Source: a virus. From it: a stretch of DNA of 23,394 nucleotides. A model generated the notes under the pieces. The model made no database searches. It was not told the origin of the DNA and worked only from the letters and a program-made list of their open reading frames with translations. Made by a program: the position numbers and the translations under genes. Each line of letters opens with the position of its first letter. Position 1 is the first letter of the stretch. Of the stretch, positions 5,815 to 23,394 are shown one piece after another. The stretch lies in the IMG/VR virus record IMGVR_UViG_3300010389_000148, positions 1 through 23,394 of that record. One strand, 5' to 3'.

Positions 5815-6168
5815 TCACCCATTCACATTATGCACTCCCTCAGATACATTTATAACCTCAGCATAAATGTAATATCCCATTTCCTCATCTAACAACTGTT
5901 TCTTTTGAGGAAACCAGTCGTGGAAAGCATTATCTGCTGCTGTCTGTGTCCTAGGATAATAGTAAACTTCTCCCCTAGACTTTAATGCATTGATAATATC
6001 TAGAGGACACTTACCAATGTAAAAATCCCAGATATCTTCTAATTGTGCAGCATCAGTCACTGACTTAGGACCATCTGCTCTCATATACATTACAGGTCCA
6101 CCAGATTTCTTAGATAACTGATGTAAAACAGACTCTACATAGAAATAATCTTCGTTAAAATTCATCAT
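5815..6168 (-). CDS. Hypothetical protein, 117 aa
   Basis: A soluble mixed alpha/beta protein: FNEDYFYVESVLHQLSKKSG, then MYMRADGPKSVTDAAQLEDI and a Tyr-rich middle (GEVYYYPRTQTAADNAFHDW). I do not recognise the family. The start overlaps the upstream TGA as ATGATG; either Met (6168 or 6165) is possible. It follows directly on the tail-assembly-chaperone-like gene and is probably co-transcribed with it, so a virion or assembly role is possible but not supported by the sequence itself. Confidence 0.83.
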   Translation of the reverse strand: MMNFNEDYFYVESVLHQLSKKSGGPVMYMRADGPKSVTDAAQLEDIWDFYIGKCPLDIINALKSRGEVYYYPRTQTAADNAFHDWFPQKKQLLDEEMGYYIYAEVINVSEGVHNVNG

Positions 6169-7295
6169 TCTTCACCCGTAATATCATCGATTGTTAAGTC
6201 TTCAAGTAATCTACTTGCAGCAACAGCAGCATCATGAGCATCTGCTTTTTCTTTCATGTCTGCTGCAATTTTCTGAATGACATCAGATAGCGTAAAGTTA
6301 GCAGAAAGCTCTTGAAGTTTAGCATTTACAGCATCAACTTTATCATCTACGGACCTTAGATAATCATTCCAATTATCTAACTGACCTCTAGTAGCAGCAT
6401 CTAGATTCTCTAGTTGGTCTTCTGGGACTAAATCAGTAGCACCATGAGGAATTAATTGATCGATAGCAGTTAATTCATCAGTGGTTAATCCTTCAGGCAC
6501 TTTCAAGCTTGCAATACCCTTAAGAATCTCAACCTTAAGTGTAATTTCTGTCCACTTTTCAATAATACCACTGATACCAAGACCGTCAATGTTTTCCTTA
6601 ACAGATTCTAATAGTGATGGTGGCAAATCAGCAGCATTTGCATATGCACTACCAACCATATTAAACATATCAACAATTTGGTCCTTAGGTCTAGGACTTA
6701 CAGGGACTACCACAGATTGGAAATTATTATCTAACCACGCTTGTTGATTAGTAATATCTCTCAATTCTTGACGATATGCAATCCATTGTTGCTTCTCTTC
6801 GTCACTGATTGGATAATCAGGTAGCACAATATAATCAGTTTCTTTCAACTGTTTTGCTCTCATTTCTAGCAACTGATACTTCATGTATGAAACATCAGCA
6901 ACTTTCTCTACAATAGACTCATAGAAATTCTCAGTCCTTTGTAGTTTTAATGCAGTATAATAATTTGCAATGAAAGCAACAAATGCATTCAATTCTGTCT
7001 CATTTGCTTCATCAAAATTATATAACTTTTCTTCTGTTTCCCTAGTGCCAAAGTTATATACTTCTTTATATCTTTGTGCAAGATATGACTTGTCTTCAAA
7101 TAGTACAAAATAAGTTAATTTATCCTTATCAGAATTCCACAAAGATGGCATTTTTGATAAGAAATCATTAAACTCCGACTCCGAAAGATCTAACCTACTA
7201 CCATTGTAGTTAATATATCTTTCTACGAGATCTCCGTAATGTGACTGCCTTTGTAATCGCAGAGTAATTACGCGATCACCAACTTTGATTGCCAT
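6165..7295 (-). CDS. Tail-assembly-chaperone-like protein, 376 aa
   Basis: Probably an assembly factor for the preceding fibre and tip proteins. Residues 168-187 contain KQQWIAYRQELRDITNQQAW and then VVVPVSPRP at 195-203, a W-x-x-YR-x-x-LRD-I-x-x-Q pattern followed by a Pro-rich stretch. I associate this with the C-terminus of phage tail-fibre assembly and XkdW-type chaperones. The N-terminal 150 residues (MAIKVGDRVITLRLQRQSHY) and the long helical C-terminus (about residues 205-376) are outside that motif, so the protein is longer than usual for the family. The ATG has TAGGA about 9 bases upstream, and a CTAAATA-type late promoter lies 23 bases before it. Confidence 0.7.
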   Translation of the reverse strand: MAIKVGDRVITLRLQRQSHYGDLVERYINYNGSRLDLSESEFNDFLSKMPSLWNSDKDKLTYFVLFEDKSYLAQRYKEVYNFGTRETEEKLYNFDEANETELNAFVAFIANYYTALKLQRTENFYESIVEKVADVSYMKYQLLEMRAKQLKETDYIVLPDYPISDEEKQQWIAYRQELRDITNQQAWLDNNFQSVVVPVSPRPKDQIVDMFNMVGSAYANAADLPPSLLESVKENIDGLGISGIIEKWTEITLKVEILKGIASLKVPEGLTTDELTAIDQLIPHGATDLVPEDQLENLDAATRGQLDNWNDYLRSVDDKVDAVNAKLQELSANFTLSDVIQKIAADMKEKADAHDAAVAASRLLEDLTIDDITGEE

Positions 7296-7317
7296 CGTGA
7301 ATTCCTAGGGATAAAAG

Positions 7318-7324
7318 TATTTAG
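7318..7324 (-). promoter_or_regulatory. Probable late promoter (CTAAATA)
   Basis: CTAAATA on the minus strand spans the stop codon of the Ig-like fibre gene and lies 23 bases before ATG 7295, with a ribosome site between them. CTAAATA-type elements are the reported late promoter motif of marine T4-like phages, related to T4 TATAAATA. It is the only such heptamer seen at a gene junction in the window; one other copy (11640-11646) is inside a coding region. It would give the assembly gene and the genes downstream their own late transcript. Confidence 0.6.
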
Positions 7325-10300
7325 TATGCTTTAATCATGTATCTCAATCTAAAGTATGCTGCATTGACAGGAATTGCTTCATTGTTTCTGAGATAGAAAC
7401 TAGTAGCATTATCAAATAACTGTTTAGATTGTAAATTCATTCTTGCTGTAGTATCGCTGATAATCATACCAGCATCTGTGACCATATCAAAACTACCATT
7501 CAGACCAGTTGCAGTATGTGTATGTAACTGACCAGCAGTAGAATCTGATAATCCATATGGACCTTCTATAATCTCGCCAGCACCGCCAGCAGTAGGTCTA
7601 AAAGATCCTGGGAAACCACATGTATTCAAACACTGATTGTTTCCATTACAACCACTATTAACTGCATAATAATTATCCAGTGCGCCAATCGAGACTGCAC
7701 TGTGTGAGTGTACTGGGTTTGCTGTAGCAGCATCTCCAGCACCTGGCAATGTATATGTAACTGTGCCAGAAAATGTGGGTTGCACAAATCCTTCTACGGT
7801 TTCCCAACCGTTTGTCTGGAATGTGCCGATAGTAAATGTCTCTGCGTTAATACTACCATCTGCTGTGCCATCTGGGTCACCAGTAATGCCAGTTGACCCT
7901 GGTGGAAGCTGAGCAGATTTAACGTAATTATATACACCACCCATAGATCCTGGCACTAGCTTATCACCACCAGATGAATCATCAGGTGCATATTCAGGAA
8001 TTACAGAAACACTACCAGAGTTACCGCTGACGTTACCCGTGCCCATTAATTTCTTGGCATATGTAAGTGGCACTCTAAATGTATCTGAAGAATTATATTT
8101 TGGATATGTGCCAGTAATAGTACCGCCATATGTATTACCCAACATTCTCGCCAATTCTGGAAATTCAGAAGCATATAATTCTTGACCTCTCAGCTCAATA
8201 TATCCTTTAAATCTATTTTCAGAATCCAATGCTTTTGCTGATTTATAATTATCAGGTCCATTTGCTGAATCATCCACCCAACTTGGTTTGTTAGCATTAT
8301 ATATTGTTCCACTAGTCGCTGCTGAAGATGTCGTTCCATTACTCTGAACTCTACCGTGATGTCCAATTCCCCAATCAGGACGGTCATCATTTGTAGCAGC
8401 AGGGTTATTTACATAAGTTGGAGGTTTGGGAATACAAATAACTGTGCCAATAGATGCTCCTGACTTCTCAGTCTGTTGACTGTAATACGTTGGTTTTGAC
8501 GCAGCAGTTTGTGTAGCAATAGTGATAGTTTTTGTATAGTCTGTTGCACTAACATTTTGCACCACCACAGCATTATTTTCTGTGTATGCATATTGATTAC
8601 AATCTGCTAATGTAATCTCACATCTATAAACTTTACCATTATATGATGCATCAATATTTGGAATAATGAGTGAAGATCCTGTTGCTCCACTAATATTACT
8701 GCCGCCATCTTGCCATTGAAATGATGGCACGCCTCCAGTCCATGATGGGTTGATGTCAATAACTAGAGTCGTGCCAATAGTAACTGAAAGATTATCAGGT
8801 GCCTTCACATATGTCAATCTTCTGTTAACTGTGATAGTGCATTCATTGGTATAAACAGGATTTGGAATACCATCAGCAGTAATTTTACATCTCAATTTAA
8901 TGCCATTTTCACTTCTAATAAAAGCATCTGGTGTATAAAATCTAGTATTAGATGCTGAATTATTAAATCCACTACCAGCAGCTTGAAATGACCCGCCAGG
9001 TTGTTGGTATTCCCACTGATATGTAATTACTCCACTATTAGAAGCAAGTGCCTCTGTCTCAAATGTTTGGCCTCCGCCTACTCCTTCCAATACTTCATAA
9101 GTGGTGGCGATATTCGTCAAAATACTAATAACTAGTGCAGTAACTGATAGTTGTGCCGCATTAGTATATTGCACTGTGCCACCAAAGCTGGTAACTTTAC
9201 ATCTATAGAAAGCAGCGTCAGACAATGCCGCACTAAGTATATTAAATGTTGCTGATGTCTCACCAGTAATAGCAGTCCAAGTTGCTTGTACAGCATTATT
9301 TGGGTCAAAGTTAGTGCTCTTCTCCCATTGATATGAAGGAGCAGAAGCAGACAATGATGTAGCAACTACAGTCCAAGAAACTACAGAATTTTCTTCTACT
9401 TGTTGGTCATTTAAATTTGTAATAGATGTAAATAAATCCTGTTTTACATATAACTCTGCCGATTGAGTTGTTACCGATGCTAATTGATTAGGTACCGAAA
9501 GCACACATCTATAGTGGGGATATGTTATAGTTGAAGGCACTGAAGAAATTTGAAGCAACGATGTAGTAGCACCAGAATAAATTCCACCGTTACTGAGATT
9601 AGTGAATGTTACATTGTCTGTACTATACTGCCATTGATATGAAATATCATTAGCAGTGCCACTAGATGGAGTTGCAGTTACAGAGAAAGCAGCACCTTCA
9701 TTTGGAAACGCAGAAGCATCAGATGGTTGGTTAGAAATGTATACTGTGCGATATACGTTTAACGTTGCTTCATTTGAATAAAACTCTGTTAATGTTTTGG
9801 ACGTATTACTACCAGTCCAAACCGCAGACGATGTTACTTTAACTCTATACTTAGCACCATCATCATCAGCAACTCTAAGTGGGGGAGTTTCATATGTTAA
9901 CTCAACATTTTCAACATCATTTGTTGGAAATGCTGTATATGATACCAGAAAATCTTCTGTAGGTTCTTCTGTGCCAGTCAATACATCATTCCAAGTGGTT
10001 TCACCTGGGTTTTGACGTTGCATGACCATCTGGACATCCCCATTCTGTCCAGTATTTCTAGCGATATTTAATTCGCCAATGATTGATGCCGTTTGCTCAG
10101 GATCGGGATAGATGTCTCTGTTTGTGATGTTACCATACTTATCTTCAATGTTTTGAAATGACGCTGGTAAAACTGGTGCAGTTTGCACGTCATTTGGATA
10201 AACATAATAAGTATTTGTAGTTACTGGAGGTTCAGATGCGGACCCAGTAATTTGACATCTAAATGCAATTACATTATAAAAAATAAATCTATCTAACTCT

Positions 10301-11304
10301 AAAACAGGTGATGTGTGATTGGTGCCACTCTTCAATCTATATGAGTTTGTTAATGCTCCTCCCTGATTAGTGCCGCCAGATGTGCCATCATCAGCAACTG
10401 CCCATGGTTCTGGGAATCCATTCGCATCTTCTACAGATAACTGCCATTCATATGATAATGGTTGTCCAGCAGTAGAAACAGCGCCTACACTTACTCTTAA
10501 TTGACCACTATTTGCAATACCAGTTTTATAGCATTGGAATGTTTCTGTGTCTAGAGGGTCAACGCCAGGTTGCTTAAAGATACTAATAACTGGTTGCACA
10601 TACAAAAGAATTGCAGCAGTATCTACAGGAGTATTGGATGCACCTGTATAACTTATTCTAGACCTATATTGATATAAATTTCTAGAATATCCACTATTAG
10701 TTACAGTAAGAGTAGATTTTCTATAGTATGCAGTCGTGCTACCCGTAGAAAATAACTCTGTTGTTGTGGTTACAGTATAATCGCCGCCAGGAGTAATATT
10801 TGTCCAAGTGCTACCATCATCCGTGCTCTCTTGCCAAACAATAGTAATATTATTTACATTAGTAGTTGTCGAGATATCTGCATTTTGTAGAGATGATGTT
10901 ACTGTAAAATCAAATGGGTCATTAACATCGATAGTTTCTGATACAGGATAATCATCCACTGTGCCTTCAACCAATGCCAAAATAATTGGAGCAGCAGTAA
11001 CAGTGACAGACCTAGTACCTACGGGGTCTAGGTCACTGAATATAGTATCAACACCATTAGTGATGGCAACACGCACAAAGATTCCATTGACACCGCTATC
11101 TACTGGTCCTAAATTAAAGAAACTATTAGTATTTCCAGTTAGTCCAGCAGCAGAATAAGTGCTTCCCCCATCATTAGAAATTTGCCACTCATATGATAAA
11201 GTAGCACCACCATCGTCACTTGCTGTGACAGCAAAGTTGATAGTATCTCCCTCAGTTACAACAATAGGTTCCGCTGGAGTCAGTGAACTAATAGTGATTG
11301 CCAT
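7321..11304 (-). CDS. Ig-like repeat and collar-domain tail protein, 1327 aa
   Basis: A large virion adhesion protein. About eight Ig-like modules are marked by a core Trp at about residues 38, 155, 285, 428 (degenerate), 556, 656, 763 and 862, in strings such as LSYEWQISNDGGS, ISYQWQYSTDNVTF and PSFQWQDGGSNISG, several with a following Y-R-C strand (KVYRCEITL). Residues about 910-1030 are a linker. At about 1038-1085 comes a phage collar domain: GYIELRGQELYASEFPELAR, then MLGNTYGGTITG and TFRVPLTY. The tip has two H-x-H motifs (HSH near 1199, HTH near 1260) and a Cys-rich loop (CNGNNQCLNTCG), and ends FRLRYMIKAY. Ig-like domains in phages are thought to bind host surface glycans weakly. The ATG has only a weak ribosome site and lies 6 bases after the upstream gene. 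Confidence 0.9.
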   Translation of the reverse strand: MAITISSLTPAEPIVVTEGDTINFAVTASDDGGATLSYEWQISNDGGSTYSAAGLTGNTNSFFNLGPVDSGVNGIFVRVAITNGVDTIFSDLDPVGTRSVTVTAAPIILALVEGTVDDYPVSETIDVNDPFDFTVTSSLQNADISTTTNVNNITIVWQESTDDGSTWTNITPGGDYTVTTTTELFSTGSTTAYYRKSTLTVTNSGYSRNLYQYRSRISYTGASNTPVDTAAILLYVQPVISIFKQPGVDPLDTETFQCYKTGIANSGQLRVSVGAVSTAGQPLSYEWQLSVEDANGFPEPWAVADDGTSGGTNQGGALTNSYRLKSGTNHTSPVLELDRFIFYNVIAFRCQITGSASEPPVTTNTYYVYPNDVQTAPVLPASFQNIEDKYGNITNRDIYPDPEQTASIIGELNIARNTGQNGDVQMVMQRQNPGETTWNDVLTGTEEPTEDFLVSYTAFPTNDVENVELTYETPPLRVADDDGAKYRVKVTSSAVWTGSNTSKTLTEFYSNEATLNVYRTVYISNQPSDASAFPNEGAAFSVTATPSSGTANDISYQWQYSTDNVTFTNLSNGGIYSGATTSLLQISSVPSTITYPHYRCVLSVPNQLASVTTQSAELYVKQDLFTSITNLNDQQVEENSVVSWTVVATSLSASAPSYQWEKSTNFDPNNAVQATWTAITGETSATFNILSAALSDAAFYRCKVTSFGGTVQYTNAAQLSVTALVISILTNIATTYEVLEGVGGGQTFETEALASNSGVITYQWEYQQPGGSFQAAGSGFNNSASNTRFYTPDAFIRSENGIKLRCKITADGIPNPVYTNECTITVNRRLTYVKAPDNLSVTIGTTLVIDINPSWTGGVPSFQWQDGGSNISGATGSSLIIPNIDASYNGKVYRCEITLADCNQYAYTENNAVVVQNVSATDYTKTITIATQTAASKPTYYSQQTEKSGASIGTVICIPKPPTYVNNPAATNDDRPDWGIGHHGRVQSNGTTSSAATSGTIYNANKPSWVDDSANGPDNYKSAKALDSENRFKGYIELRGQELYASEFPELARMLGNTYGGTITGTYPKYNSSDTFRVPLTYAKKLMGTGNVSGNSGSVSVIPEYAPDDSSGGDKLVPGSMGGVYNYVKSAQLPPGSTGITGDPDGTADGSINAETFTIGTFQTNGWETVEGFVQPTFSGTVTYTLPGAGDAATANPVHSHSAVSIGALDNYYAVNSGCNGNNQCLNTCGFPGSFRPTAGGAGEIIEGPYGLSDSTAGQLHTHTATGLNGSFDMVTDAGMIISDTTARMNLQSKQLFDNATSFYLRNNEAIPVNAAYFRLRYMIKAY

Positions 11305-11310
11305 AGGTCT

Positions 11311-12234
11311 TTAATACTTGATTAGATACTCACAGAGAATGAATTTTGGTGCAATATCATCCATTTTAAAAGTATTTTTCGTCTTCATTTTGACAGTGGT
11401 TGTCAAACCAGATGCTGTCATAGTAGTAGAAGGAATACTGCCACTATATGATGTGCTCAAGTTAACACTACCTAATGAGTGTGTATGTTGAGATTCTGTA
11501 CCAGATTCTGTAATGTCTAAAGAAACAAAAGTCACGCCATAGTTTTGGTCAGCAGTACATATAACTTTTGCTGGTTGATAGCATAAAATACCACCACCAT
11601 AAAAAGCACCAGCCCAAGACCCAGTTGCCATACCCTGGTTATTTAGGTTAATGGAGTGACCAATAGTGTGTGTACCTCTATGACCATGAGCAATAAAGTT
11701 ACCAATTTGAAGTGTAGTCGAAGGTGTTTTACTTGGAGGAGAAACTGTCCTCCACACACCAACAAAATTCAATGAAGATACACCATTTGCTTTGAATTCA
11801 CCTGTATATGTGAAATCAACTTCATCACCGTTTGAAGCAAGTTGTACTGCAATACCAGCACGTTGGACTTCCAAATTTGTTGTTGGATTGAGAGTAGTAT
11901 CATTACTATAGATACCAGGATTAGATGCTGTAGTAATATATTTACTGCCTAAATCTGGTAGTTGAAATGTGCCACCAGTGCCCGAGTCATTTCTTTCTGC
12001 TAATGTAATATCAGCTTTCTTATAAAGACAAGCTTCGCCAACTCCTAACAAATCGGCAAGTTGTGGAAATTGGTCAGCAGATAAAATTTGACCATTACAT
12101 TTCAAATATCCAGCAGGAATAAAATCTTCATAATCTTGCTCAGTAGGCAAAGTTCCTTGTATCTGCCTAAAAAATGGGAAGATTGCCCCACAAGGTCCGC
12201 CATATTTACCTTTTTCGTAAGAATAACTTGCCAT
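11311..12234 (-). CDS. Collar-domain tail-tip protein, 307 aa
   Basis: A short tail-fibre-type protein. Residues about 13-96 form a phage tail collar (MdpB-like) domain: GAIFPFFRQ, AGYLKCNGQILSADQFPQLA, DLLGVGEACL and TFQLPDLG, the usual G-x-x-x-P, C-N-G, P-x-L and F-x-x-P-x-L order. The C-terminal half holds His-rich segments (HGHRGTHTIGH at 183-193 and QHTHS at 249-253), like the iron-binding H-x-H motifs of T4 fibre tips. It ends FILCEYLIKY, like its neighbours. It is shorter than the adjacent paralogues and lacks Ig modules. The gene follows the upstream stop by 4 bases, with no clear ribosome site. Confidence 0.88.
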   Translation of the reverse strand: MASYSYEKGKYGGPCGAIFPFFRQIQGTLPTEQDYEDFIPAGYLKCNGQILSADQFPQLADLLGVGEACLYKKADITLAERNDSGTGGTFQLPDLGSKYITTASNPGIYSNDTTLNPTTNLEVQRAGIAVQLASNGDEVDFTYTGEFKANGVSSLNFVGVWRTVSPPSKTPSTTLQIGNFIAHGHRGTHTIGHSINLNNQGMATGSWAGAFYGGGILCYQPAKVICTADQNYGVTFVSLDITESGTESQHTHSLGSVNLSTSYSGSIPSTTMTASGLTTTVKMKTKNTFKMDDIAPKFILCEYLIKY

Positions 12235-12238
12235 TTTA

Positions 12239-13402
12239 TTAATATGCTCTGATAATGAAAACCATATCTAAAGTTGGAGTAACTGTTGTAGCACTTATAT
12301 TGCCAAAATTTTCTCCAGAAGAATTAACAATCTTAACTGTATTTATTTTCACATTATTAACAATACCAGGACTTGTCACCGAAAAATCTGCTTCAAAGTC
12401 AAATTGACTGGATGTGTGGTTATGTGGTTGAGAATCTGCCTTCTCATCACTAGACAAGCTAGTGAAGGTAATTCTGTCATTTCCACTAAATGAAGCACAA
12501 GTCATATTGCCTCCACATCTACCATCACCAGGATAATAACCACCCGATGCAGTTTCACCACCTGGAACAGGTTGGACACTACCCCCACCTGCAGCTGGTG
12601 ATGACCAGTTACCAAAAGACTCATTCAAGTGACCACTATTATTTGCATACTTAAGACCATTTCTGACTCTCAAACAAGGAGTTTGAGTGCAAACCATCTT
12701 ACAGCTACCAACAGGCCATCCACCACTAGGACAACGGACTGCTTGACCAGGACTATCATGATTATATGCTGTTGTTTCTGTTGAAGATTCGTTAGCAATA
12801 CCATGACTATGCATACTCATATGGTAATCCATCAAATTATATGAATTGTAAATAGAGATACCAAAATAACTACCCTCAGTAATGGTAATATCATCATAGG
12901 TTGCTAAGAAATCTGGAGACCCAGAAAATTCACCAACTAAATCAATTGTTGATTGCCAAGTGCTTTGTGTATTAGCGGATTCATTACCATTATTTCCACC
13001 ACCAACTAAACTCCAAAATGGGTCATCAGACTTAGTTGTATATTCAGGACGTGATGGAATACCTATATTTGCAGGTTTGGCTCCACCAGAATAATTCCAA
13101 GACCCATTGCCACCCGTGCCATTTGATAAGTGGTAAAAATATCCTTCATAAATGTCTACAATACCTTTCTGATTATTTGTTAAGGCAGGCACTTTAAAAG
13201 TTGACCCTGCAGTGCCTCCATAAACATTACCAATACATTCATACAATAAAGGATATTCATCAATATCACTATTACGACCATTGCAAACTAACCAACCAGT
13301 AGGAATCGCAGAAGATTCAGCTGCCCATGGGATAATAGTCCCAATGGGCAAACCTCTCATTCTTCTTACTTCGTTATATTTTGCTGCGTCTGCAAATGCC
13401 AT
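12239..13402 (-). CDS. Collar-domain tail-tip protein, 387 aa
   Basis: The first of three tandem collar proteins. Residues 21-75 form a textbook collar domain: GTIIPWAAESSAIPTGWLVC, NGRNSDIDEYPLLYECIGNV and YGGTAGSTFKVPAL. Downstream lie a Gly/Asn/Ser-rich body, MHSHG (197-201), a Cys-rich segment with Cys at about 224, 234, 238, 243, 296 and 302, and PHNHT (326-330). It ends LDMVFIIRAY. The H-x-H pairs suggest metal-stabilised trimeric tips and the Cys loops suggest disulphides or metal sites; both are inferences. GGAG with 9-base spacing lies before ATG 13402, inside the end of the giant gene. Confidence 0.9.
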   Translation of the reverse strand: MAFADAAKYNEVRRMRGLPIGTIIPWAAESSAIPTGWLVCNGRNSDIDEYPLLYECIGNVYGGTAGSTFKVPALTNNQKGIVDIYEGYFYHLSNGTGGNGSWNYSGGAKPANIGIPSRPEYTTKSDDPFWSLVGGGNNGNESANTQSTWQSTIDLVGEFSGSPDFLATYDDITITEGSYFGISIYNSYNLMDYHMSMHSHGIANESSTETTAYNHDSPGQAVRCPSGGWPVGSCKMVCTQTPCLRVRNGLKYANNSGHLNESFGNWSSPAAGGGSVQPVPGGETASGGYYPGDGRCGGNMTCASFSGNDRITFTSLSSDEKADSQPHNHTSSQFDFEADFSVTSPGIVNNVKINTVKIVNSSGENFGNISATTVTPTLDMVFIIRAY

Positions 13403-13405
13403 ATA

Positions 13406-16400
13406 TTAAATCTCCATTAACCACCAACCTTGGAATGCATCGGGAATACCGTTGCCATCTAAATCTTGGTCACCAACAAAGATAAGACCAAAAGCAGCAT
13501 TTGGAGTGTTAACAACCAACTCACCTCCTTGACCGCTGCCACCACCTAAATTACTGCCAACGTCAGACCCTTGTACCTTAACGTTAGAAGATGATGCTCT
13601 GATAACTAGATTATTAGCGAAGTTAAGGGCACCACCAACATCTACAATTCTGATTGTATCACCAGTGATTGCATCAGTAGGCAACTTCAATATGAGAGTC
13701 GATGAAGGAATGACGAGATATTGTAGATTGGGTCTTAGTAACTCAGCAGTTGCATCTGTATTGCCCTGTGTAGAAATAAACTCCGTCTTTCTACCACCGT
13801 TTGCGTTGTAGAAGTTTTCGTGACCGAATGCCTCAATAGAAGCATCTTGTCTGAATGTGAATGGTTTATTACCACTGACGCCCAAGTTGTTAATTTGGAC
13901 AACCTCAGTAGCAGCAGAAGGATTTGCAGAAGATACACCGTTGACTTCTAGATATCTACCAACGTATGTGTCACCAGTTTGTGCATCAACTGTGAATCTA
14001 GAGGTATGAGCATTGCTTCCACTCTCAGGATTTGCAGGATTAGCAAGTGTGCCAACTGCAAAGTCGTCACCAGTCCTTAGTGTGCCAGCAATCTTAGTGT
14101 TACCAGTTGCACCCAATACCTCAAGTGCGATATTAGTTGCACTGTTAGTCCTACTCTTATCGAATGACCCAGTTGCAAAGAAGGAATCTTTGAAAATCTT
14201 AAGGTCTGCACCATTGTATAGACTTGTGTCACCAGAAGCAGACTCAACATAGAATTTAGGTAGAGTGCCATTAGTGATAACGAAGTATTGTTTTTCAGGA
14301 GTAGAAGTAGAAGTATTACCACTCAACTCGATTGAGTTGTGGACCGTTAGATTACCACCACCAGTTGTTTCTAAAGTTGCACCAGTTGCTTCACTATTAG
14401 TCTTGCCGTAAGCATCAGCAAGATTCTGGTCATTTGCAGCGTTGATGAATGGTTTCGTAGTATCGTAACCGATTACAACGTCGCCACTAATTTGTGTGTT
14501 ACCAGTGGTAGAGATAGTCTTAAAGACTTCAAGTGGGTCCTTAGGTAAGACAGAGGTGCCGAAGTCACCATTGTTAATAGTGAAGGACTGAGCATCAGCA
14601 GGGTTAATTACCGTGATTCTTGTATATTCACCACCAGTGTTTAAGTCCGTCTTATTGAGACGGAATAGGTCACCTGCCTTGATAGCAGCAGAGAATTCTG
14701 CAACGTTAATTGTAGTATCAAGAGCAGTGACTGGGTTAGGTGAGATGAAAGAAGCATTTTGCTGCTCAATCAATCTTACAACCTTTTGTCCATCTGGTTG
14801 TGCAGATTGTGCGGTACCTCTTTGTCCTCTAATAACCTCAACGGTATATGGGACAGGAGAATCTGGGACATAAGTTGTTGGGAAGTTGACTGTCTGCACA
14901 ATTTCTGTGCCAACCAAATACAACTCACTGATACCAATGCCAGATGGATTGCTGATTGGTAGCAAGTATGTCTGGACACCATTCAGAATCTGATTCTTAT
15001 ATGAATCATCACCCCATGGTTGACCACCAACTGTATCAACAGTTGTCTCTGCAATAACCATTCTAGCAGTGCCAGCATCGGTGGTACCAGATTGTAGAGC
15101 AATAGTAATGGTATTGTCATTAACATCCTTAAGGACGAATCCTAGAGCATCTCTGCTTTCAATATAATAAGTAGAAGTCGTATTGACACCAGTTAGATTA
15201 CCAATATCAATAAACTGGACTGACTCATTTGTATTGAAGAAGTGACCACTTGCATCAACAATAATCTTATTAGCAGTTACTGTAGTGATATTGACGACTC
15301 CACTAAAGTCATCAACAACACTGAAGAAGTCGATGTTTAGATTTGCAAGTGTGCCTGTTGACTGATTGAGACCAACACCAGTAATAACAGTACCTGTAGC
15401 AGCTGCGGCAGAGAAATTACTGCCAGTATTGCTATAAGTAAATGTGGTGCTATCTACAACAGTTAGAGATACTGCATTTACAGTATTGAATGAATCTACA
15501 CTAGAATCAATCTCTGCTGTATCACCAGTGGTTAAGTTGTGTGGGTCAATAGTAGTTACCGTTGCAACGTTACTACTTCTCGCCAAGGTAGCAATACGAA
15601 TCGTGCCGAAGATGTTTCTATCGATACCGAGATTAGTATTCTTAAGACCACCATTTTGAGTCATGTCTGACTCAAAGAATGCAGATCCTTGGACTCTAAT
15701 GCCATTTCTGATTTGAGTCTCACCAGCAACACCACCAAGAGTCAACTCACCAACTGATAGACCAATATTTAACTTGGTGATACCAGATGGGAAGAGAGTA
15801 AACTCACCATCAGGAGATGTTGTATTGATTTCTCCACCATTAATAGTGAGAATGCCATCAACGATTGTCTGATAATTCTTAATGTTAAATACACTTGACT
15901 GCTTGTTAGCAAATGCACCACCTAAAGTGATTCTGGAAACATTTCCAGCACCAGTATTTTCAACTGTGCCTACATTAACAGTAGAATTGATAGAATCTGT
16001 GTGGACATTGAGTGTGCTTGTGCCTGTTACCGCAGTGCCAATATTGATTGTTTGGTCTGCCGTTGCTAGGTCAGCAATCGCTACATTTACAGCATAACCA
16101 GTGAGATTCAATGATGTAGTGCTAGTCTGATTAGCAATGTTGAATGTAGCAGCAGTAGAGCGAATATCGCCACCATCAACATCAATGTCACGCTCAAAGG
16201 TAAAGTCACCAGTGATTCTTGCATCACCCGAAACAACAAAGTTTTTATCTAATGCTGCGTCATTGACGTTAATACCAACTCTACCGTTATCAATATCGGC
16301 AGTTGCACCTTCAGTGCGTCCATCTTGAGATAGTGTTGTAGTTGTAACTCTAAATTCAGCAGTAGAATCAGGATTTGCACTGTCACCACCAACAATAAAT

Positions 16401-19400
16401 GCGTGCTTAGTTGCTACTGGTGTGCCACCACTACCATCAGATAGTGTGGTTTGAGTCCTACCACTGATAAATGTGTTACCAACAACATCAAGGTTTGCTC
16501 TTGGATAAGTTGCAGTAGAAACAAATCCGTCTTCATAATCTGTAGAAACTGCTCTAGCAATAGTGTTGATGCCTAGTTTATAATCACCATATACAGCGGT
16601 TTCTGTCCTTAGCGCCTCAGCACCAATAACACCTGTTTCCTTCCAAGAAGAAGTGCCAATAGAAATTTCTAAGTTTGGTTGAGCACCTGGAGCAGTATTA
16701 GCAAGATATGGAGCATTTCCAGTCAATACTGCTTCGGATGACCTTTCGGTGATTAGATAAACATAACTGTTTGACTCTAGATATTCATATCCTTCAGCAG
16801 CATTATTATATACAGTATGGACACCATTAACCGTAGATAGTCTATCACCTTCACCACCAGTAATCTTAATCTGACTGGTTAGCGTAATACCAAGTGATGC
16901 ACCTGGATTAGTGCTACTAAAGTTAACCTTACCAACTTGGAAGATAAGTTTAATAACATTTAGATTGGGGAAGAATTCAATACCAGTGATATCAATAGCA
17001 GACTCATTACCAGGAGTTGCACCTAAAGTATATGGGACATACGAGTTAGCATAAATCCAACCAAGTGAGCCAGTATTTCCTACTTCACCACCTTTGAATA
17101 GGATGTCTCCAGATAGAGGGACACTAGACCCAAATTGAATAGATTGTGCAGAATTAAATCTTGCTTTTGTGCCTGAAGTATCTTGGTTAGGTGTGGTATT
17201 ATCAACACCAGACCTGAGAGTATATCTCTGTGTGCCTCTTGGGTTGAGGTCAAAGATAGCAGCTCTGACTCTATTCTTATCGATTAAGATGTCACCAGCT
17301 CTTGTAGTATCGAGTAGTTGATCATCATCACCAGGGACTACACCTTGTCTATCACCAGGACGTGATACAATTTTGAGTGAAGGAGGAGTCATCTTCGCTT
17401 CAAACTCAGGGTCAACGTTGATGATGACAGGTGAGTTAAAGAAGTTAGTTAGATTAGGTGGAGCATTTAGAGTAATAATATTCTCAAACGTTACGGGGTC
17501 TTCAAAGACCGTAACGAGACTACCGAATTCACCATCTTCCGAATCATCTTCCTCTAGGATGAGTGCATCTAGGAATTCTTCTTCACCAGTGATAGCGTTA
17601 ATCTTACGATTACCGATATACAATTCACCGTTGGAGTTGATACCAGTGTAGAATACGATACCAGCATCTTGGCGCTTGGACTGTGCATAGTAGTCTTGGA
17701 CATCAGTTAGAATAACTGTCTGTCTTGCAGGGAAACCAGTTGAGTAGTTACCAGGACCGAAACCAAGATATTCAAACGTGTGGTTACCAGCACGAGCAAT
17801 AGATGGACGACGTAATTCAACAAAGAGTTTTTGCTCTAGTGGGAATCCAGAGTCACCTGCGATTGGAATGAGTCTCTCTTCCGCACCTGAAGATGCAGCG
17901 CCAGTCTGTGCCTTGATTGCATTTGTGCCAGTATAAGTATACTCACCAGAACCAGGATTCTGAATAAAGTCTAGAATTGCTTCCTTGGTAGCAGAATTCT
18001 TAGCATCGTTAATTGTAACTAGACCGTGAATATAGTTGTCAGCGGCACAAGATGCTGCTGGTGGGTCTAGAAGTGTAGCATCTTGATTACCACCCTGCTC
18101 ATCACTACCATCATACTGGAAGAGTAGTGGGTCATTCTTATAAGTGAGAGGATATAGTCTAGATACAGGTTGACTAAACTTGAAGTTTCTGAAGTTTGTA
18201 CCAATACCAGAACCAAGAGGTAAAGGTGAAATATCACCACGGACAACTGTTAGATAGTAAACACCATCTTGCTGACGTGGGATTCTTCTCTGAATCTCTT
18301 CAATGCTGTAGATGTAGTATGTTTCAGTTAGGTCTGAGACATCTTCAACGCTAACAACTCTATACTGTCTAGCAGCATCATCCGTGATAACATCACCAGG
18401 AGTAATAGTATAAACGTTTGCTGCTTCTACACCATATAGATATTCCTTCTTATCTTCTTTACCAAAGTTAGGTCTATCTAGGACTTCAGCAGTAACATCT
18501 GCTTGACCTGCAATGGTTTGTCTAATGAATGTCTGTGTGCTTGTATCAAAGTCCAATTCACCTTGGACTGCCTTAAGAATTAGGTAGTTAAACTCTTCTA
18601 GTCCACCTTCAACATTCTCATTGCCAAACCAAGAGTGGACAACTGCACTACCTGTATACTCACCATACCATGTAACAGTAGCACCCTCAACGAAGTCACC
18701 ATTGCCACCCTGAGGTTGAGAAACTTTAACAGTGACAAATCTCTCTGCCTTGAGTGATTCTAGGTCTAGACCATGGTCAAAGACCGTCATCTCTAGGTAT
18801 CCTTCATCATTAATTCTAGCAGATTGGATAGTGAATGATACGTTAGATTCAGTCTTAGTGCCCTCAATACGCTTTGCAAACGTAGGATTGTATGGGTCAT
18901 ACTCAGTTAGAGCAGCAGATATGCCAAGTCTTTCTCTTGGTGATGGACCTTCTTCAAAGAATGTAGCATCCTTCTGGACACCTGCAGCAACAGGCTTGAG
19001 GAGTAGTTTCTGTGGTAGAAGTTTTCTCTTTTCGTCAGTCCTGATTCTGATTGCAAAACCTTCGAGTGGGTCTCTAACATCATCACGATAGTTAGGAATG
19101 ACATAACGTAGTTTGTATGACTTATCCTCTTTCTCTCTGGTGTCATCTGCTCTATAGAAGAATGAGTCAGGAGTGCGAGGTGGTTTGTTGACATAGAGAC
19201 TTCCTCTCGATGCATCAGACATCGTGATTCTCTGGTAAATCTCGTTACCAGACTCTAGAGACTTGAGATACCAGCACTGCTGTGCAGGATCATAACCTAG
19301 AGGACTTCTCTTCTTAGTTGCAAAGACATGGAATGATTGTCCACTTGGGAAGTTGAATTGGACAGCATTCTGCTTATCAATGGCATTCTGGACAGTAAGA

Positions 19401-22400
19401 TATAGCGAGAATTCGTTATTCTTAGTGTAAGTTGCTGGGCGACCAACATAGTATGGTCTATCAATCTCCAGTCTATCGCCAGAAGTCTTAGTTGGTAGAG
19501 TATCAAGAGCAGCACCAACTGCCTCACCATTGACTAGATTCTCTTCTAGTGGATAGAAGAAGACTTGTTGGACTTGGACACCATTGATAGCGGTATCAAA
19601 GACGTGGTTTGTGGTAGTTTCAAATACTCTAGAGCTGACTAGTGAGCAAGTATAACGATGTAAGTCATAATTGACATCAGTTAGATACTGATGGACTTCA
19701 ATCTTAATATCTGGACTGATACTAGTTGTCTCAGATGAATAGATGTAGTTACCCGCAGTAGCATTCTCGATGCTAGTTGCAAGCATGAAAGTCTGAGAAT
19801 CATTAAACTGTGCAGTAGCACCACCAGATGAATAATCTTCTGGTTGTGTAATCTTACCAGGAGCAATGACATAATACTTAGTATTGGTGTCAAATCCTTT
19901 GGGTAGTCTGATAAGACGCTTATCTACACTGTCATTTGCAGCAACAGGGACAAGTCTAACTGGTGTGCCAGTTTCCATGTTATGAGGATTAGCACCACCA
20001 ACACGGAATAGAGTTGCTCTGGTTGCAAATTCAGAAGTATTGACAAGTTGAGAAACAAGAGGCTCTGCATCTACGCCATTACGGATGATGCTGTCAATGA
20101 CACGCATCTTCTCGATAATAGCATCTTTGGTGCTAGCACACTTGTTATTGCTAGTATCAACTGTGATACTATCATCTGTCTGTGGAGCATACTTGACAAT
20201 ATACTCATCACTACCACTGTTTCTAGGAGGTAGAGGACCAGTATTTTCAAGTGCTTCAATGAGAATATCAAACTCGGTAGCGATAGTATATGCTACATCT
20301 GCACAACGTGGAGTGCCACCTGCATCACCTGACAAATAACCATCAGTAAAATCAGTTTGAAGGTCTAATGGGTTAGTTGGGTCCTTAACATATAGTGGGT
20401 CATTATCTGTGCCATCACCAGTCCTCCAATTACGCATTGCGAGGATAGCAAGGTCTCTGACCTTCTTAAATGCATAAACACTGATGTTTAACTCACCAGC
20501 AAGTGATTCAGACCCAGCATTATAGTTAACTGCTGGTAGTGCAAGAGTGCCATTATTAAGTTTGTCAATGAGGACACTAAAGAGAGTATCAATACTGTTT
20601 CTTACATCTAGATAAGCATTTGGATTATCATTTGGAATGTTAGGGCCAGGGACACCCAATTCAGCAGGACCCTCTGGAATATCAAAGTCTCTTACATTAA
20701 GTTGATTAGTTACTGCCTTGAAGCATAATTGTCTAGCTTCTTCAAAAGCAGTAACAGATTGTGCCAACTCACCAGCAAGACCATTGTTAATGAGAGTGTT
20801 ACCAGTGCTATCAAAGTAAGATAAGGTTGCCTGAATAATATTATAGTTACCACCAAGTGCTAGGTCTTCTGCGATTGCATCAACGACGATGCCAATGTCA
20901 CGCTTACACTTCTCTTGGAATGTAGGTGCGCTACCATAGTTAATCTCGGGAAGTGCAGGGTTGGTTGCTGTGCCAGTAACCATATCACCCTGACGAATTC
21001 TCGTAAAGATGAGCTCTGATAGAGTATCTAGAGTTGCTTGGACGTTAGAGCAAGATTGTGTATCTTGATTATTTGTAGTGACACCAGGAGTGCCGAATAC
21101 ACTGAGACCAGAACCAGGATTGCCAGGTTGTGGGTCGCCAGTTAGTGTCAAGTCCTTAACAAATAACTGGTTATTAATAGCGAGTTTCATCGCTTCTACC
21201 GCTGCAGTATAAGCAGTGATAGAAGGTGCTTCTTCACCCTGAAGACCACCAGTAATCCATGCTTGCTCAACAGTAGAAACTGTGACAGTGATATCGTCAG
21301 CAATATCAACACCGCCAATCTTACCGCCAGGAATAGTTACTAGGTCAGTAGCAGCATACCCATAACCACCCTCTAGAATAGTTACGCTATCAACGACACC
21401 ATTAGAATCTCTGGTTACTCTGAAAGTAGCGCCAACTCCATTAGCACTAGTAGTATCAACACCGTTATAAATTCTATCTGCTCTGTTTAGAAGCGTGGTG
21501 CCAGCAGAATTTGTGAAAGTAAGAATCTTACCATTTACTGCACCTTCAACAAAATACTGCTTGATAAAGTCAATAGAGTATGAGTTGCCAAGTGTTGTGA
21601 GGTCAGTAGAGATAGCATCGATAAAATATCCAATATCACGCTTACACTTCTCTTCGCCTGCAGTAATAATATTACCGACAGATTCATTTGGAAGTGAATT
21701 TGTATTCCCAGCAGTGATACTTGCAACAGGAATACCCGTTAAATTATCAATTGTAGTGCGGACGTTAGAGCAAGATAATGGGTCTGTATTGCTACCAGTT
21801 ACAGGGTCAGCAGTGATTGTGAGATCTTTTACTGTCAACTGATTAGTGACAGCTGCCTTCATCATCGCACCTGCTTTATTAAGAGCAGTATTTGTTTCTG
21901 CTGCAATAGTGCCAGGACCACCTTCAGTAAAATACTGAAGAGTAAACAAACGAGTATATCTATTACCACCTTGGAATAAATCAAGAGTTGCAGAATCAAC
22001 AAAAGTGCTTATGTCTTTTAATAGTTTAGCAGCATCTGGTGCAACAAAACCAGGATGTTGCAATGCAATTTCATCATATGCTGCTTGGACAATTTCAGTC
22101 TTATTCTGATTAATTAATCTATATGAATCAGCAAATCTAGACCCATTATCAGTTTGTTGGTCATCTGGGAAGTAGAAATCTGGATGTGCAACAGCAACTT
22201 CCGCAGTTGCTTTATCTTGAATATGTTGCTTATTCTGCTGAATTAGACGATATGAGTCCTTATATCTAGAATATACATTAGTTTGGGCATCGCCACCATT
22301 ACTAAATCCACTACCACCGTAGTAGAAATCAGGATACTCAATAGCAAGTTTTGCTGCTGCTTTATCAACAATTTCTCTCTTATTGGCAAGAATTAACTCT

Positions 22401-23394
22401 TTAGAGATAGAATATCTTTCTGCTTCACCAACATAAGAAGTTGCTGCATCAACGATACCAGCGTTACCAAATGTCCTGAGGTCAGTAACAAGACCATCGA
22501 GGATTAGACCGATGTCACGCTTACACTTGGTTTCGTCAGGGACAGTAGTTGAAGGGTCCCACTGTTTAGCGAGGATAAGTGCTTCTTCAGCAATGAAGTC
22601 TTTGTTTAGTGTGATGAGAGTGCCAGCATCAAATGCTCTACCTGAGGAGCTAGCAAACTTAGGTTGATTTAATTCAAAATTGAGTGTAATACCACCAGCG
22701 GCAGGACCAGTTGCAGTAATGGTAGCGGTAGCATTTACAGTGTCAGTGTCATTAGCATTACCAAGTCTAATCTGAGTAGTGCTAATAATTTCCTTAACAT
22801 AAGTGCCAGCAGGAATTGGATTATTCTGACCAGTTGCAGGAGTTGCCGTAACTGACATACCCTCAACAATACCAATAGTGGTGATTGCTGCAGGAATAGT
22901 TACAACATCATTATTTAAGAAAGTGCTGCAATTTTCAATACGGAATTCCCAGTTACGCATTGCAGCAACTGCAAGACTTCTAGCATATGAGAATGCCTCT
23001 AGAGTCTCTTCTCTTTCACCTTCAATGAAGTCTAATTGATTACCAGTATAGTATGCTTGACCTGCTTGGACGCTGTTGACGTTACCGCCAACGCGAAGGT
23101 CATTAGCAACTGCTTCTAGGATATACCCAACGTCGCGACGGCACTTGCCAATAGTGAGACCTTCTTTGGTAAGAAGATAAGGATATTTACGAGTGATGTA
23201 ACCGTATACTTCAGACGCAATAAAGTCTCTGTTAAGGTCAATTAGATTTGCTGCATCTTGGTCATTGTTAGAAACAACTGCATTATTTGTAGTTGGCGAT
23301 AGGATAGAAAGACCAACTTCAAACTTTCTATAACCAGCTGGAGCAAGTTCTGCTTCACGAATAGACCCAGTAAATCCAGTTGCAGGGTCAAGTT
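13406..23394 (-). CDS. Giant virion structural / tail-fibre-like protein, >3328 aa, 5' partial
   Basis: The frame is open to the right edge, so the start is outside the window. A Met at 22960 (MRNWEF) is not the start: 144 further codons are open upstream, and AMRNW recurs internally near 20440. The visible N-terminal third (about 20200-23394) is built from repeats with a C-(K/R)-R-D-(I/V)-G motif (four copies plus one degenerate) and helical segments. The middle (about 17500-20200) looks mixed. The C-terminal part (13406 to about 17300) has trimeric-fibre-like repeats (VSGDARITGDFTFERDIDVD, TLNVHTDSINSTVNVGT) and H-N-L/M-x-T-G segments. It ends QGWWLMEI. It probably belongs to the tail or baseplate and may act as a long fibre or ruler; this is inferred from context and repeats. 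Confidence 0.93.
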   Translation of the reverse strand, partial: LDPATGFTGSIREAELAPAGYRKFEVGLSILSPTTNNAVVSNNDQDAANLIDLNRDFIASEVYGYITRKYPYLLTKEGLTIGKCRRDVGYILEAVANDLRVGGNVNSVQAGQAYYTGNQLDFIEGEREETLEAFSYARSLAVAAMRNWEFRIENCSTFLNNDVVTIPAAITTIGIVEGMSVTATPATGQNNPIPAGTYVKEIISTTQIRLGNANDTDTVNATATITATGPAAGGITLNFELNQPKFASSSGRAFDAGTLITLNKDFIAEEALILAKQWDPSTTVPDETKCKRDIGLILDGLVTDLRTFGNAGIVDAATSYVGEAERYSISKELILANKREIVDKAAAKLAIEYPDFYYGGSGFSNGGDAQTNVYSRYKDSYRLIQQNKQHIQDKATAEVAVAHPDFYFPDDQQTDNGSRFADSYRLINQNKTEIVQAAYDEIALQHPGFVAPDAAKLLKDISTFVDSATLDLFQGGNRYTRLFTLQYFTEGGPGTIAAETNTALNKAGAMMKAAVTNQLTVKDLTITADPVTGSNTDPLSCSNVRTTIDNLTGIPVASITAGNTNSLPNESVGNIITAGEEKCKRDIGYFIDAISTDLTTLGNSYSIDFIKQYFVEGAVNGKILTFTNSAGTTLLNRADRIYNGVDTTSANGVGATFRVTRDSNGVVDSVTILEGGYGYAATDLVTIPGGKIGGVDIADDITVTVSTVEQAWITGGLQGEEAPSITAYTAAVEAMKLAINNQLFVKDLTLTGDPQPGNPGSGLSVFGTPGVTTNNQDTQSCSNVQATLDTLSELIFTRIRQGDMVTGTATNPALPEINYGSAPTFQEKCKRDIGIVVDAIAEDLALGGNYNIIQATLSYFDSTGNTLINNGLAGELAQSVTAFEEARQLCFKAVTNQLNVRDFDIPEGPAELGVPGPNIPNDNPNAYLDVRNSIDTLFSVLIDKLNNGTLALPAVNYNAGSESLAGELNISVYAFKKVRDLAILAMRNWRTGDGTDNDPLYVKDPTNPLDLQTDFTDGYLSGDAGGTPRCADVAYTIATEFDILIEALENTGPLPPRNSGSDEYIVKYAPQTDDSITVDTSNNKCASTKDAIIEKMRVIDSIIRNGVDAEPLVSQLVNTSEFATRATLFRVGGANPHNMETGTPVRLVPVAANDSVDKRLIRLPKGFDTNTKYYVIAPGKITQPEDYSSGGATAQFNDSQTFMLATSIENATAGNYIYSSETTSISPDIKIEVHQYLTDVNYDLHRYTCSLVSSRVFETTTNHVFDTAINGVQVQQVFFYPLEENLVNGEAVGAALDTLPTKTSGDRLEIDRPYYVGRPATYTKNNEFSLYLTVQNAIDKQNAVQFNFPSGQSFHVFATKKRSPLGYDPAQQCWYLKSLESGNEIYQRITMSDASRGSLYVNKPPRTPDSFFYRADDTREKEDKSYKLRYVIPNYRDDVRDPLEGFAIRIRTDEKRKLLPQKLLLKPVAAGVQKDATFFEEGPSPRERLGISAALTEYDPYNPTFAKRIEGTKTESNVSFTIQSARINDEGYLEMTVFDHGLDLESLKAERFVTVKVSQPQGGNGDFVEGATVTWYGEYTGSAVVHSWFGNENVEGGLEEFNYLILKAVQGELDFDTSTQTFIRQTIAGQADVTAEVLDRPNFGKEDKKEYLYGVEAANVYTITPGDVITDDAARQYRVVSVEDVSDLTETYYIYSIEEIQRRIPRQQDGVYYLTVVRGDISPLPLGSGIGTNFRNFKFSQPVSRLYPLTYKNDPLLFQYDGSDEQGGNQDATLLDPPAASCAADNYIHGLVTINDAKNSATKEAILDFIQNPGSGEYTYTGTNAIKAQTGAASSGAEERLIPIAGDSGFPLEQKLFVELRRPSIARAGNHTFEYLGFGPGNYSTGFPARQTVILTDVQDYYAQSKRQDAGIVFYTGINSNGELYIGNRKINAITGEEEFLDALILEEDDSEDGEFGSLVTVFEDPVTFENIITLNAPPNLTNFFNSPVIINVDPEFEAKMTPPSLKIVSRPGDRQGVVPGDDDQLLDTTRAGDILIDKNRVRAAIFDLNPRGTQRYTLRSGVDNTTPNQDTSGTKARFNSAQSIQFGSSVPLSGDILFKGGEVGNTGSLGWIYANSYVPYTLGATPGNESAIDITGIEFFPNLNVIKLIFQVGKVNFSSTNPGASLGITLTSQIKITGGEGDRLSTVNGVHTVYNNAAEGYEYLESNSYVYLITERSSEAVLTGNAPYLANTAPGAQPNLEISIGTSSWKETGVIGAEALRTETAVYGDYKLGINTIARAVSTDYEDGFVSTATYPRANLDVVGNTFISGRTQTTLSDGSGGTPVATKHAFIVGGDSANPDSTAEFRVTTTTLSQDGRTEGATADIDNGRVGINVNDAALDKNFVVSGDARITGDFTFERDIDVDGGDIRSTAATFNIANQTSTTSLNLTGYAVNVAIADLATADQTINIGTAVTGTSTLNVHTDSINSTVNVGTVENTGAGNVSRITLGGAFANKQSSVFNIKNYQTIVDGILTINGGEINTTSPDGEFTLFPSGITKLNIGLSVGELTLGGVAGETQIRNGIRVQGSAFFESDMTQNGGLKNTNLGIDRNIFGTIRIATLARSSNVATVTTIDPHNLTTGDTAEIDSSVDSFNTVNAVSLTVVDSTTFTYSNTGSNFSAAAATGTVITGVGLNQSTGTLANLNIDFFSVVDDFSGVVNITTVTANKIIVDASGHFFNTNESVQFIDIGNLTGVNTTSTYYIESRDALGFVLKDVNDNTITIALQSGTTDAGTARMVIAETTVDTVGGQPWGDDSYKNQILNGVQTYLLPISNPSGIGISELYLVGTEIVQTVNFPTTYVPDSPVPYTVEVIRGQRGTAQSAQPDGQKVVRLIEQQNASFISPNPVTALDTTINVAEFSAAIKAGDLFRLNKTDLNTGGEYTRITVINPADAQSFTINNGDFGTSVLPKDPLEVFKTISTTGNTQISGDVVIGYDTTKPFINAANDQNLADAYGKTNSEATGATLETTGGGNLTVHNSIELSGNTSTSTPEKQYFVITNGTLPKFYVESASGDTSLYNGADLKIFKDSFFATGSFDKSRTNSATNIALEVLGATGNTKIAGTLRTGDDFAVGTLANPANPESGSNAHTSRFTVDAQTGDTYVGRYLEVNGVSSANPSAATEVVQINNLGVSGNKPFTFRQDASIEAFGHENFYNANGGRKTEFISTQGNTDATAELLRPNLQYLVIPSSTLILKLPTDAITGDTIRIVDVGGALNFANNLVIRASSSNVKVQGSDVGSNLGGGSGQGGELVVNTPNAAFGLIFVGDQDLDGNGIPDAFQGWWLMEI
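17489..17516 (-). other. Stem-loop inside the giant gene
   Basis: CGTTAC and GGTCT on one side pair with AGACC and GTAACG on the other (11 base pairs), with a two-base bulge and a four-base loop, within coding sequence (protein ...VTVFEDPVT...). No T-run follows on the minus strand, so it is not a typical terminator. It may be incidental or an RNA structure that affects translation. Confidence 0.5.
20891..23143 (-). repeat. C-K-R-D-I-G protein repeats in the giant gene
   Basis: Conserved cores are encoded at 23126-23143 (CRRDVG), 22508-22525 (CKRDIG), 21629-21646 (CKRDIG) and 20891-20908 (CKRDIG), plus a degenerate copy lacking Cys at 22007-22024 (LLKDIS). Each is followed by an (I/V)DA-x-x-x-DL-x-x-x-GN pattern, and most by an aromatic Y-F segment, then an NQL-x-V-(K/R)-D strand and, in two copies, a SCSNV segment. 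Spacing is 126-293 residues, so the units are similar in order but differ in length. Confidence 0.8.
22048..22420 (-). repeat. Triple helical repeat in the giant protein
   Basis: Three neighbouring segments share an N-K-x-x-I-x-x-x-A pattern ending in an acidic-aromatic motif: NKREIVDKAAAKLAIEYPDF, then NKQHIQDKATAEVAVAHPDF, then NKTEIVQAAYDEIALQHPGF. The second and third are preceded by DSYRLI. The repeat period is 50 and then 43 residues. They sit between two C-K-R-D-I-G units and look like an expanded insertion. Confidence 0.75.

Follow-up and report, generated by a model that had tools for sequence, protein, structure and literature searches.

Three ancient collar-domain tip proteins in a Kyanoviridae-like virus, and a permuted hydrolase-like module in the Ig-like array of its relatives

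Why should a phage encode three tail tip proteins of very unequal size one directly after the other? The question is raised by a 23,394-base virus fragment in IMG/VR (record IMGVR_UViG_3300010389_000148, positions 1 to 23,394; hereafter the window), in which three consecutive open reading frames (ORFs), set in one operon order with intergenic gaps of 4 and 6 bases, encode the collar-domain tip proteins c1 (12239..13402, 387 amino acids (aa)), c2 (11311..12234, 307 aa) and c3 (7321..11304, 1327 aa). These and all other window features described here lie on the minus strand. A previous sequence-only reading had noted collar genes of different size at 12239, 11311 and 7321, and the ORFs are indeed found there; it had proposed a duplication followed by divergence, giving several receptor-binding tips on one virion or a reservoir for host-range change. 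The explanation we consider probable is that the three are ancient paralogues of the tip of T4 gp12, encoded side by side and forming what would be trimeric virion tips, and that c3 has been fused to immunoglobulin (Ig)-like domains into which a hydrolase-like module has been inserted in relatives of this phage.

The three proteins have a common set of family marks. The collar domain (PF07484, curated Pfam cut-off 24 bits) scores 58.5 bits in c1 (residues 21-75, 13178..13342; E-value 6.4e-16) and 34.4 bits in c2 (residues 37-64, 12043..12126; E-value 2.1e-8). In c3 the collar domain is enlarged (residues 948-1070, 8095..8463) and reaches 23.4 bits (E-value 6e-5), 0.6 below the cut-off, while the orthologue in the related locus L009 reaches 24.6 bits, above it; the c3 region is also covered by a collar profile trained on cyanophage relatives, with c3 itself in the training set. 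Each protein contains exactly two H-x-H motifs, at residues 198 and 327 of c1 (12803..12811 and 12416..12424), 183 and 250 of c2 (11680..11688 and 11479..11487), and 1199 and 1261 of c3 (7702..7710 and 7516..7524), where shuffling of the residues predicts 0.04-0.15. In 500 such shuffles the probability of two or more motifs was 0.006 for c1, 0.012 for c2 and <0.002 for c3. At least two are present in 51 of 54 collar proteins, the misses being two proteins truncated by the end of the locus and T4 gp12, which has one. The C-terminal endings (IIRAY in c1, LIKY in c2, MIKAY in c3) belong to a general [IL]I[KR]-type ending common to T4 gp12, which takes the form [ILV]I[RK]A[YF] in c1 proteins, [IL]IK[FYI] in c2 proteins and, where complete, [ILM]IK[AV][YWF] in c3 proteins. 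Collar, paired H-x-H motifs and endings, all three recognized in the earlier reading, are thus marks of a family and not chance resemblances. At whole-protein level c1 is a T4 gp12-like short tail fibre (PHROG 4591 short tail fiber, E-value 6.8e-30) and c2 matches a tail collar protein over its whole length (PHROG 4714, E-value 4e-51).

Among named phages, the proteins most similar to c1 and c2 come almost exclusively from marine Synechococcus and Prochlorococcus myoviruses, and we therefore regard the source phage as Kyanoviridae-like. We opened 11 cultured Kyanoviridae-type stretches selected for a match to c1 or c2 (S-H9-1, S-MbCM7, S-CAM4, Syn1, S-PM2, Sf-CH1b, Sf-CH3, S-CAM3, S-RSM4, S-WAM2 and ACG-2014e; the collar of the S-PM2 third gene was verified in the sister record LN828717). 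The first two collar genes directly follow a giant fibre gene in all 11. The third comes immediately next in four (S-H9-1, S-MbCM7, S-RSM4, S-WAM2) and after 2-6 other genes in the remaining seven. The window has the same order of giant fibre, c1, c2, (others), c3 and chaperone, so that c1 occupies the T4-GC 735 position, for which S-H9-1 and others have an orthologue, c2 the T4-GC 736 position and c3 that of T4-GC 1598/740. This cassette is already annotated in cultured cyanophages (T4-GC 735, 736, 740/1598).

How old are the three genes? In a collar-domain tree of 54 rows, c2 and c3 each form a clade across all sampled Kyanoviridae (support 99/96 and 95/96), which persists when the S-PM2d proteins are added (57 rows; 100/97 and 98/95). 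Each of the three window collars falls among its positional counterparts, c1 being nearest c1 rows, and forcing them into one clade is rejected by the approximately unbiased (AU) test (p-AU 2.4e-5 with 54 rows, 7e-77 with the three added). Since the c2 and c3 clades hold and a window clade is rejected, the paralogues predate the sampled Kyanoviridae and do not represent a recent expansion. The c2 protein can be aligned over its full length with its Kyanoviridae counterparts, at 28-34% identity. The proposal of duplication followed by divergence is thereby supported, with the qualification that the event is an old one. It had been thought that grouping of the collars with proteins of other phages, and not with one another, would speak against duplication. 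Such grouping is what we see, and as the partners are positional orthologues it dates the duplication and does not deny it. The three-collar cassette is thus a normal component of Kyanoviridae genomes, one for which annotation already exists, and its members are old paralogues. They would be relatives of the C-terminal tip of T4 gp12, and they have been kept between the giant fibre and tail-fibre chaperone genes.

What might three such tips do? Each of c1, c2 and c3 is probably trimeric, with H-x-H pairs that would hold metal ions along the axis in the manner of T4 gp37, whose H-x-H motifs bind iron according to the part of PMC11705849 available. The virion may bear all three tips, at or near the baseplate, where they could touch different features of the host surface or serve different steps of adsorption. 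The deposited S-PM2d record assigns T4-GC 735, 736 and 740 to S-PM2d219, d220 and d224, and the collar tree groups these with c1, c2 and c3, respectively. In the available portion of a study of coexisting S-PM2d and Synechococcus in chemostats (PMC9910659), non-synonymous changes are given for d219 and d224 at day 39 and for d220 at day 500 in one of three chemostats. All three orthologues were thus mutated in the presence of the host, indirect support for several receptor-binding tips per virion, and it is plausible that the cassette acts as a reservoir for host-range change. Measured against the related loci L007 and L008, all three window genes are under purifying selection, with a ratio of non-synonymous to synonymous substitution rates (dN/dS) of 0.12-0.29.

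Alternatively, one of the three alone could bind the receptor, the other two serving in the baseplate or as connectors and retaining the collar for trimer assembly. T4 annotation gives this role to gp12 alone, and c2 varies least in length, with 16 of 18 rows falling within 290-307 aa (428 in S-RSM4 and 461 in S-WAM2), which would fit a connector. We nevertheless consider a single binder unlikely, given that both H-x-H motifs and the tip ending are kept in all three proteins and that, in the S-PM2d experiment, mutations under host selection are reported for every one of the orthologues.

If the three genes are old neighbours built to one plan, what makes c3 so much larger? Residues 1-915 (8560..11304) form an array of about eight Ig-like domains. 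One is recognized by Pfam (Ig_3 at residues 632-705, 37.5 bits against a curated cut-off of 30, E-value 3.4e-9), and the remaining copies by an iterated Ig profile, trained in this lineage, that matches residues 19-915. The corresponding protein of S-H9-1 has 370 aa, of which residues 2-370 align with c3 938-1327, and the N-terminus of the orthologues in L010-L012 corresponds to the start of the c3 tip. Thus about 930 residues of Ig-like domains stand ahead of the tip, and the modules by which c3 was said to differ from its neighbours are identified. The array is common to the c3 proteins of L007, L008, L009 and L085. In seven other c3 orthologues (555-1406 aa) Pfam detects the collar alone, and we therefore treat the array as a feature of the window lineage among those sampled. 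The Ig-fused c3 is a new variant of a compact tip orthologue, and it differs from c1 and c2 because that compact ancestor was fused behind Ig-like domains. The domains probably serve as a stalk and as a scaffold for the display of extra modules.

Enlargement of a different kind is seen in the third collar proteins of S-RSM4 (1406 aa, L017:14481-18701), where the N-terminal collar is split by ~275 residues, and of S-WAM2 (1269 aa, L018:14981-18790), also with an N-terminal collar; both have a long unannotated region after the H-x-H motifs. P-HM1 encodes a large Ig-domain protein (PHM1_104, L013:2817-8315) directly before gp13 (neck), unlike the position of the Ig-bearing c3.

The surprising part to a specialist is a naturally permuted hydrolase-like module inserted in this array. 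Two syntenic relatives of the window, L009 and L085, carry an alpha/beta-hydrolase-like module of ~290 aa in different loops of the Ig array and in different circular permutations; we found no trace of it in the window. The c3 protein of L009 (1614 aa; module at L009:12371-13330, record IMGVR_UViG_3300013230_000001) is 80-81% identical to window c3, with ~302 residues in permuted order replacing three in the fifth Ig-like domain, at a site that is unoccupied in the window (residues 497-499, 9808..9816). That the 299 extra residues might be added Ig copies was considered and rejected, as they make up a non-Ig module. L085 has the same order of giant protein, c1, c2 and c3 as the window (c1 43% and c2 61% identical), and its c3 (1621 aa, L085:2643-7508) carries the module in canonical order in the seventh Ig-like domain, corresponding to the unoccupied site at about residues 765-772 (8989..9012) of window c3. 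As a separate observation, a frameshift divides the c1 gene of L009 (8868-9996) between two ORFs, which would reflect either an error or a real loss.

The L009 insert contains GHSQGG, fitting the nucleophile elbow G-x-S-x-G. Among 45 distinct copies of the module in all orders, the Ser is conserved in 44, the Asp in 45 and the His in 44, as are an oxyanion-type His (44) and Gly (45). The unpermuted module has the Ser-Asp-His order that the alpha/beta-hydrolase superfamily requires. The curated Pfam score was not reached (best Abhydrolase_6, 17.5 bits against 26.3), and the assignment is instead carried by fold comparison. An AlphaFold2 (AF2) model of the permuted L009 module has a mean predicted local distance difference test score (pLDDT) of 86 and a predicted template-modelling (TM) score (pTM) of 0.88. 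The top two matches of this model in the PDB by Foldseek and the top four by VIA are circularly permuted forms of HaloTag or a sensor recorded as being based on HaloTag; the VIA matches have Z 13.1-13.3 over 201-211 residues, against Z <=10.7 for ordinary esterases. With an identity to the structural matches of 10-22%, a modest Foldseek TM of ~0.4 and a Pfam score below cut-off, our claim covers fold and topology and not the substrate. The model thus indicates an alpha/beta-hydrolase-like fold. From its motifs and modelled fold the module is predicted to be an active enzyme, which may remove acetyl or other ester groups, as an esterase or deacetylase would, from the host envelope or from glycans beside the receptor.

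Alternatively, the module might not be an enzyme at all and be instead a selfish insert, such as an intein-like element, or a structural one, such as a spacer. It does occur in unrelated host proteins at many positions, and its presence or absence differs between close relatives. Against this reading, Ser, Asp, His and the oxyanion-type His-Gly are conserved in all orders, and it is esterases, cutinases and HaloTag that the modelled fold resembles. Inteins start with Cys or Ser and end with His-Asn, whereas the L009 insert has neither the start nor the end. In L009 an intein or terminal-repeat element was rejected, since the insert ends have no 9-mers in common, direct or inverted, and typical intein ends are not seen. 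We judge a non-enzymatic insert improbable.

How widespread is the module, and in which order is it built? A first scan detected it in 31 viral contigs and a profile-guided scan in 49 IMG/VR contigs. Defining half A by the conserved Asp and His, and half B by the His-Gly and Ser motifs, the order is A-B in 24 of the 49 loci, B-A in 20, a third cut in which A is divided around B in three, and incomplete in two. Three circular permutations are thus present in phage tail proteins, with L041, L046, L047 and L057 among the module-bearing loci besides L009 and L085. The ORF that hosts the module bears a collar in 10 of the 49 loci and matches the window's giant protein in nine. The third-cut form is also found in the cultured phage S-SCSM1, in gp137 (368 aa, annotated as tail fiber and virion protein); 45 virion proteins of this phage have been identified by mass spectrometry, according to the available part of PMC9602691. 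Four distant bacterial relatives, from metagenome-assembled genomes, have the order B-A, one of them split across two ORFs. The change of order can be followed within a single family: L077 (4644-9407) and L086 (4668-9356) encode homologous collar proteins, 44.6% identical over ~110 N-terminal residues and 37.7% over ~450 aligned C-terminal positions. Both have the module in one and the same position, just behind the collar start, but in A-B order in L077 and B-A in L086.

In a tree of 45 module rows (omitting L061, with its split ORF, L102 and L105, with incomplete modules, and exact duplicates) A-B is nested in B-A, and the third cut is nested in A-B (clade support 100/99). Placing all permuted rows in one clade is not rejected (p-AU 0.267 with 45 rows; borderline at 0.042 minus five long-branch rows). 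A single A-B origin being compatible with the tree, we hold our claim to at least one change to A-B and the nested third cut. The new termini would lie in a loop ahead of the Asp strand, and the second cut would separate the Asp segment from the His segment. Tandem duplication followed by trimming may produce a permutation in situ, and permutation may allow the enzyme to be inserted into a loop of the scaffold by both of its termini. No paper listed in our searches of the open-access literature describes this permuted module in its title or abstract; some hydrolases with permuted or reversed edge strands (beta1, beta2) are mentioned in the part of a hydrolase classification available (PMC11878206). 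Taken as a whole, it seems rather more probable than otherwise that a serine-hydrolase domain is traded among the tip and fibre proteins of marine myoviruses, and that this domain was permuted in nature at least twice, stands in different orders in orthologues, and is displayed on an Ig scaffold.

Two further explanations fare considerably worse. The first holds that c1, c2 and c3 arose in this phage by recent tandem copying and serve as a reservoir of tips that can replace one another. It would suit consecutive genes with like motifs and differing sizes, and is very improbable, as c1 and c2 have full-length positional orthologues and the tip of c3 has them too; the collar trees and one-clade test reject a recent tandem duplication. 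Least credible is that the swapped order in L009, a metagenomic contig with a broken c1 frame, is an assembly error, as the A-B order recurs in nearly half of the viral contigs that carry the module, three contigs and cultured S-SCSM1 show the third cut, and AF2 folds the permuted order with confidence.

Several observations weigh against our preferred account of ancient paralogous tips. The collar trees rest on just ~70 columns, and c1 does not form a single clade in them (three changes), its rows being interrupted in the 54-row tree by T4 gp12 and the collar protein of HTVC027P. The AF2 model of the c3 tip (seven sequences) has a pLDDT of 28.6 and was kept out of the fold searches. Many further S-PM2d genes were mutated in the same experiment, as described in the accessible part of PMC9910659, so that the changes in the three orthologues are support for host contact and not proof of it. 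Between the window and L007, divergence is among the highest in the c1 collar region (13.0-13.1 kb) and in the stretch at 8.0-8.5 kb leading up to and within the c3 collar; both are also high in synonymous divergence, which points to allele exchange by recombination. Divergence is equally high in several other stretches (242-841, 1442-1891 and 21692-21991), and we therefore draw no host-range conclusion from it. Finally, the phage is known from a 23 kb IMG/VR fragment.

The genes flanking the cassette are those expected from its position. The gene immediately upstream of c1, which continues the operon order, encodes a giant tail-fibre-like protein of 3184 aa (13406..22960; PHROG 4527, 2050.9 bits), an order that matches cultured Kyanoviridae. 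Directly downstream of c3 is a putative tail assembly chaperone of 376 aa (6165..7295; Pfam PF16778, E-value 5.7e-12; PHROG 4697). Pfam and PHROG annotation of the window found no 2-oxoglutarate (2OG)-Fe(II) oxygenase gene beside the chaperone, though many relatives have some there. The low-coordinate end holds further small phage genes and a ferrochelatase-like gene (2503-3096; PHROG 2954, E-value 2.8e-47), the latter being separated by a few kb from the tip cassette upstream of it; S-MbCM7 too has a ferrochelatase annotated near its cassette. A search of the window for non-coding RNAs and tRNAs found none, and megablast of positions 6000-14500 against named phages returned no nucleotide-level relatives. 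In the S-PM2 RefSeq entry (L006, NC_006820.1 168556-173383), 16 tRNA features are placed within the giant fibre gene. ARAGORN finds no tRNAs in that gene or in the sister record, and the coordinates therefore look misplaced.

To our knowledge, host recognition of Synechococcus and Prochlorococcus by T4-like cyanophages is largely unexplained. Three ancient, separately evolving tips, all mutated under host pressure in S-PM2d, provide a concrete short list of candidates, and the module suggests that these phages bring an enzyme to the point of host contact. The c3 Ig array may provide enzymes that modify the receptor with a natural scaffold for their display. It is rare to meet in nature a series in which one catalytic domain family stands in three sequence orders within homologous phage proteins, and this one parallels the circular permutation and domain insertion practised by engineers.

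The closest known counterpart is the collar cassette of Kyanoviridae such as S-H9-1, ACG-2014h (S-MbCM7) and S-PM2, which has the same order behind the giant fibre gene, the collar, the H-x-H motifs and the C-terminal ending. The window differs in the N-terminal array of about eight Ig-like domains in the c3 of its lineage and in lacking GC 737-739-type genes between c2 and c3. T4 gp12, whose gene adjoins baseplate genes, has in common the collar (residues 340-394), an H-x-H motif (residue 445) and the C-terminal LNYIIKVKE. However, T4 has one gene with one H-x-H motif, whereas the cyanophages have three genes with two motifs each, and the collar of c1 and c2 is near the N-terminus. Ig-domain tail proteins (PHROG 27200 and 3995, P-HM1 PHM1_104, Felixounavirus-type) have Ig-like domains alignable with c3 480-900; the P-HM1 gene adjoins gp13, and the window array is instead fused to a collar tip. 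Engineered HaloTag7 circular permutants (8b6n, 8b6o, 8b6p, 6u2m) are the best structural matches of the permuted L009 module. They are designed proteins, whereas the L009 module, at 10-12% identity to them, is natural and part of a phage tail protein.

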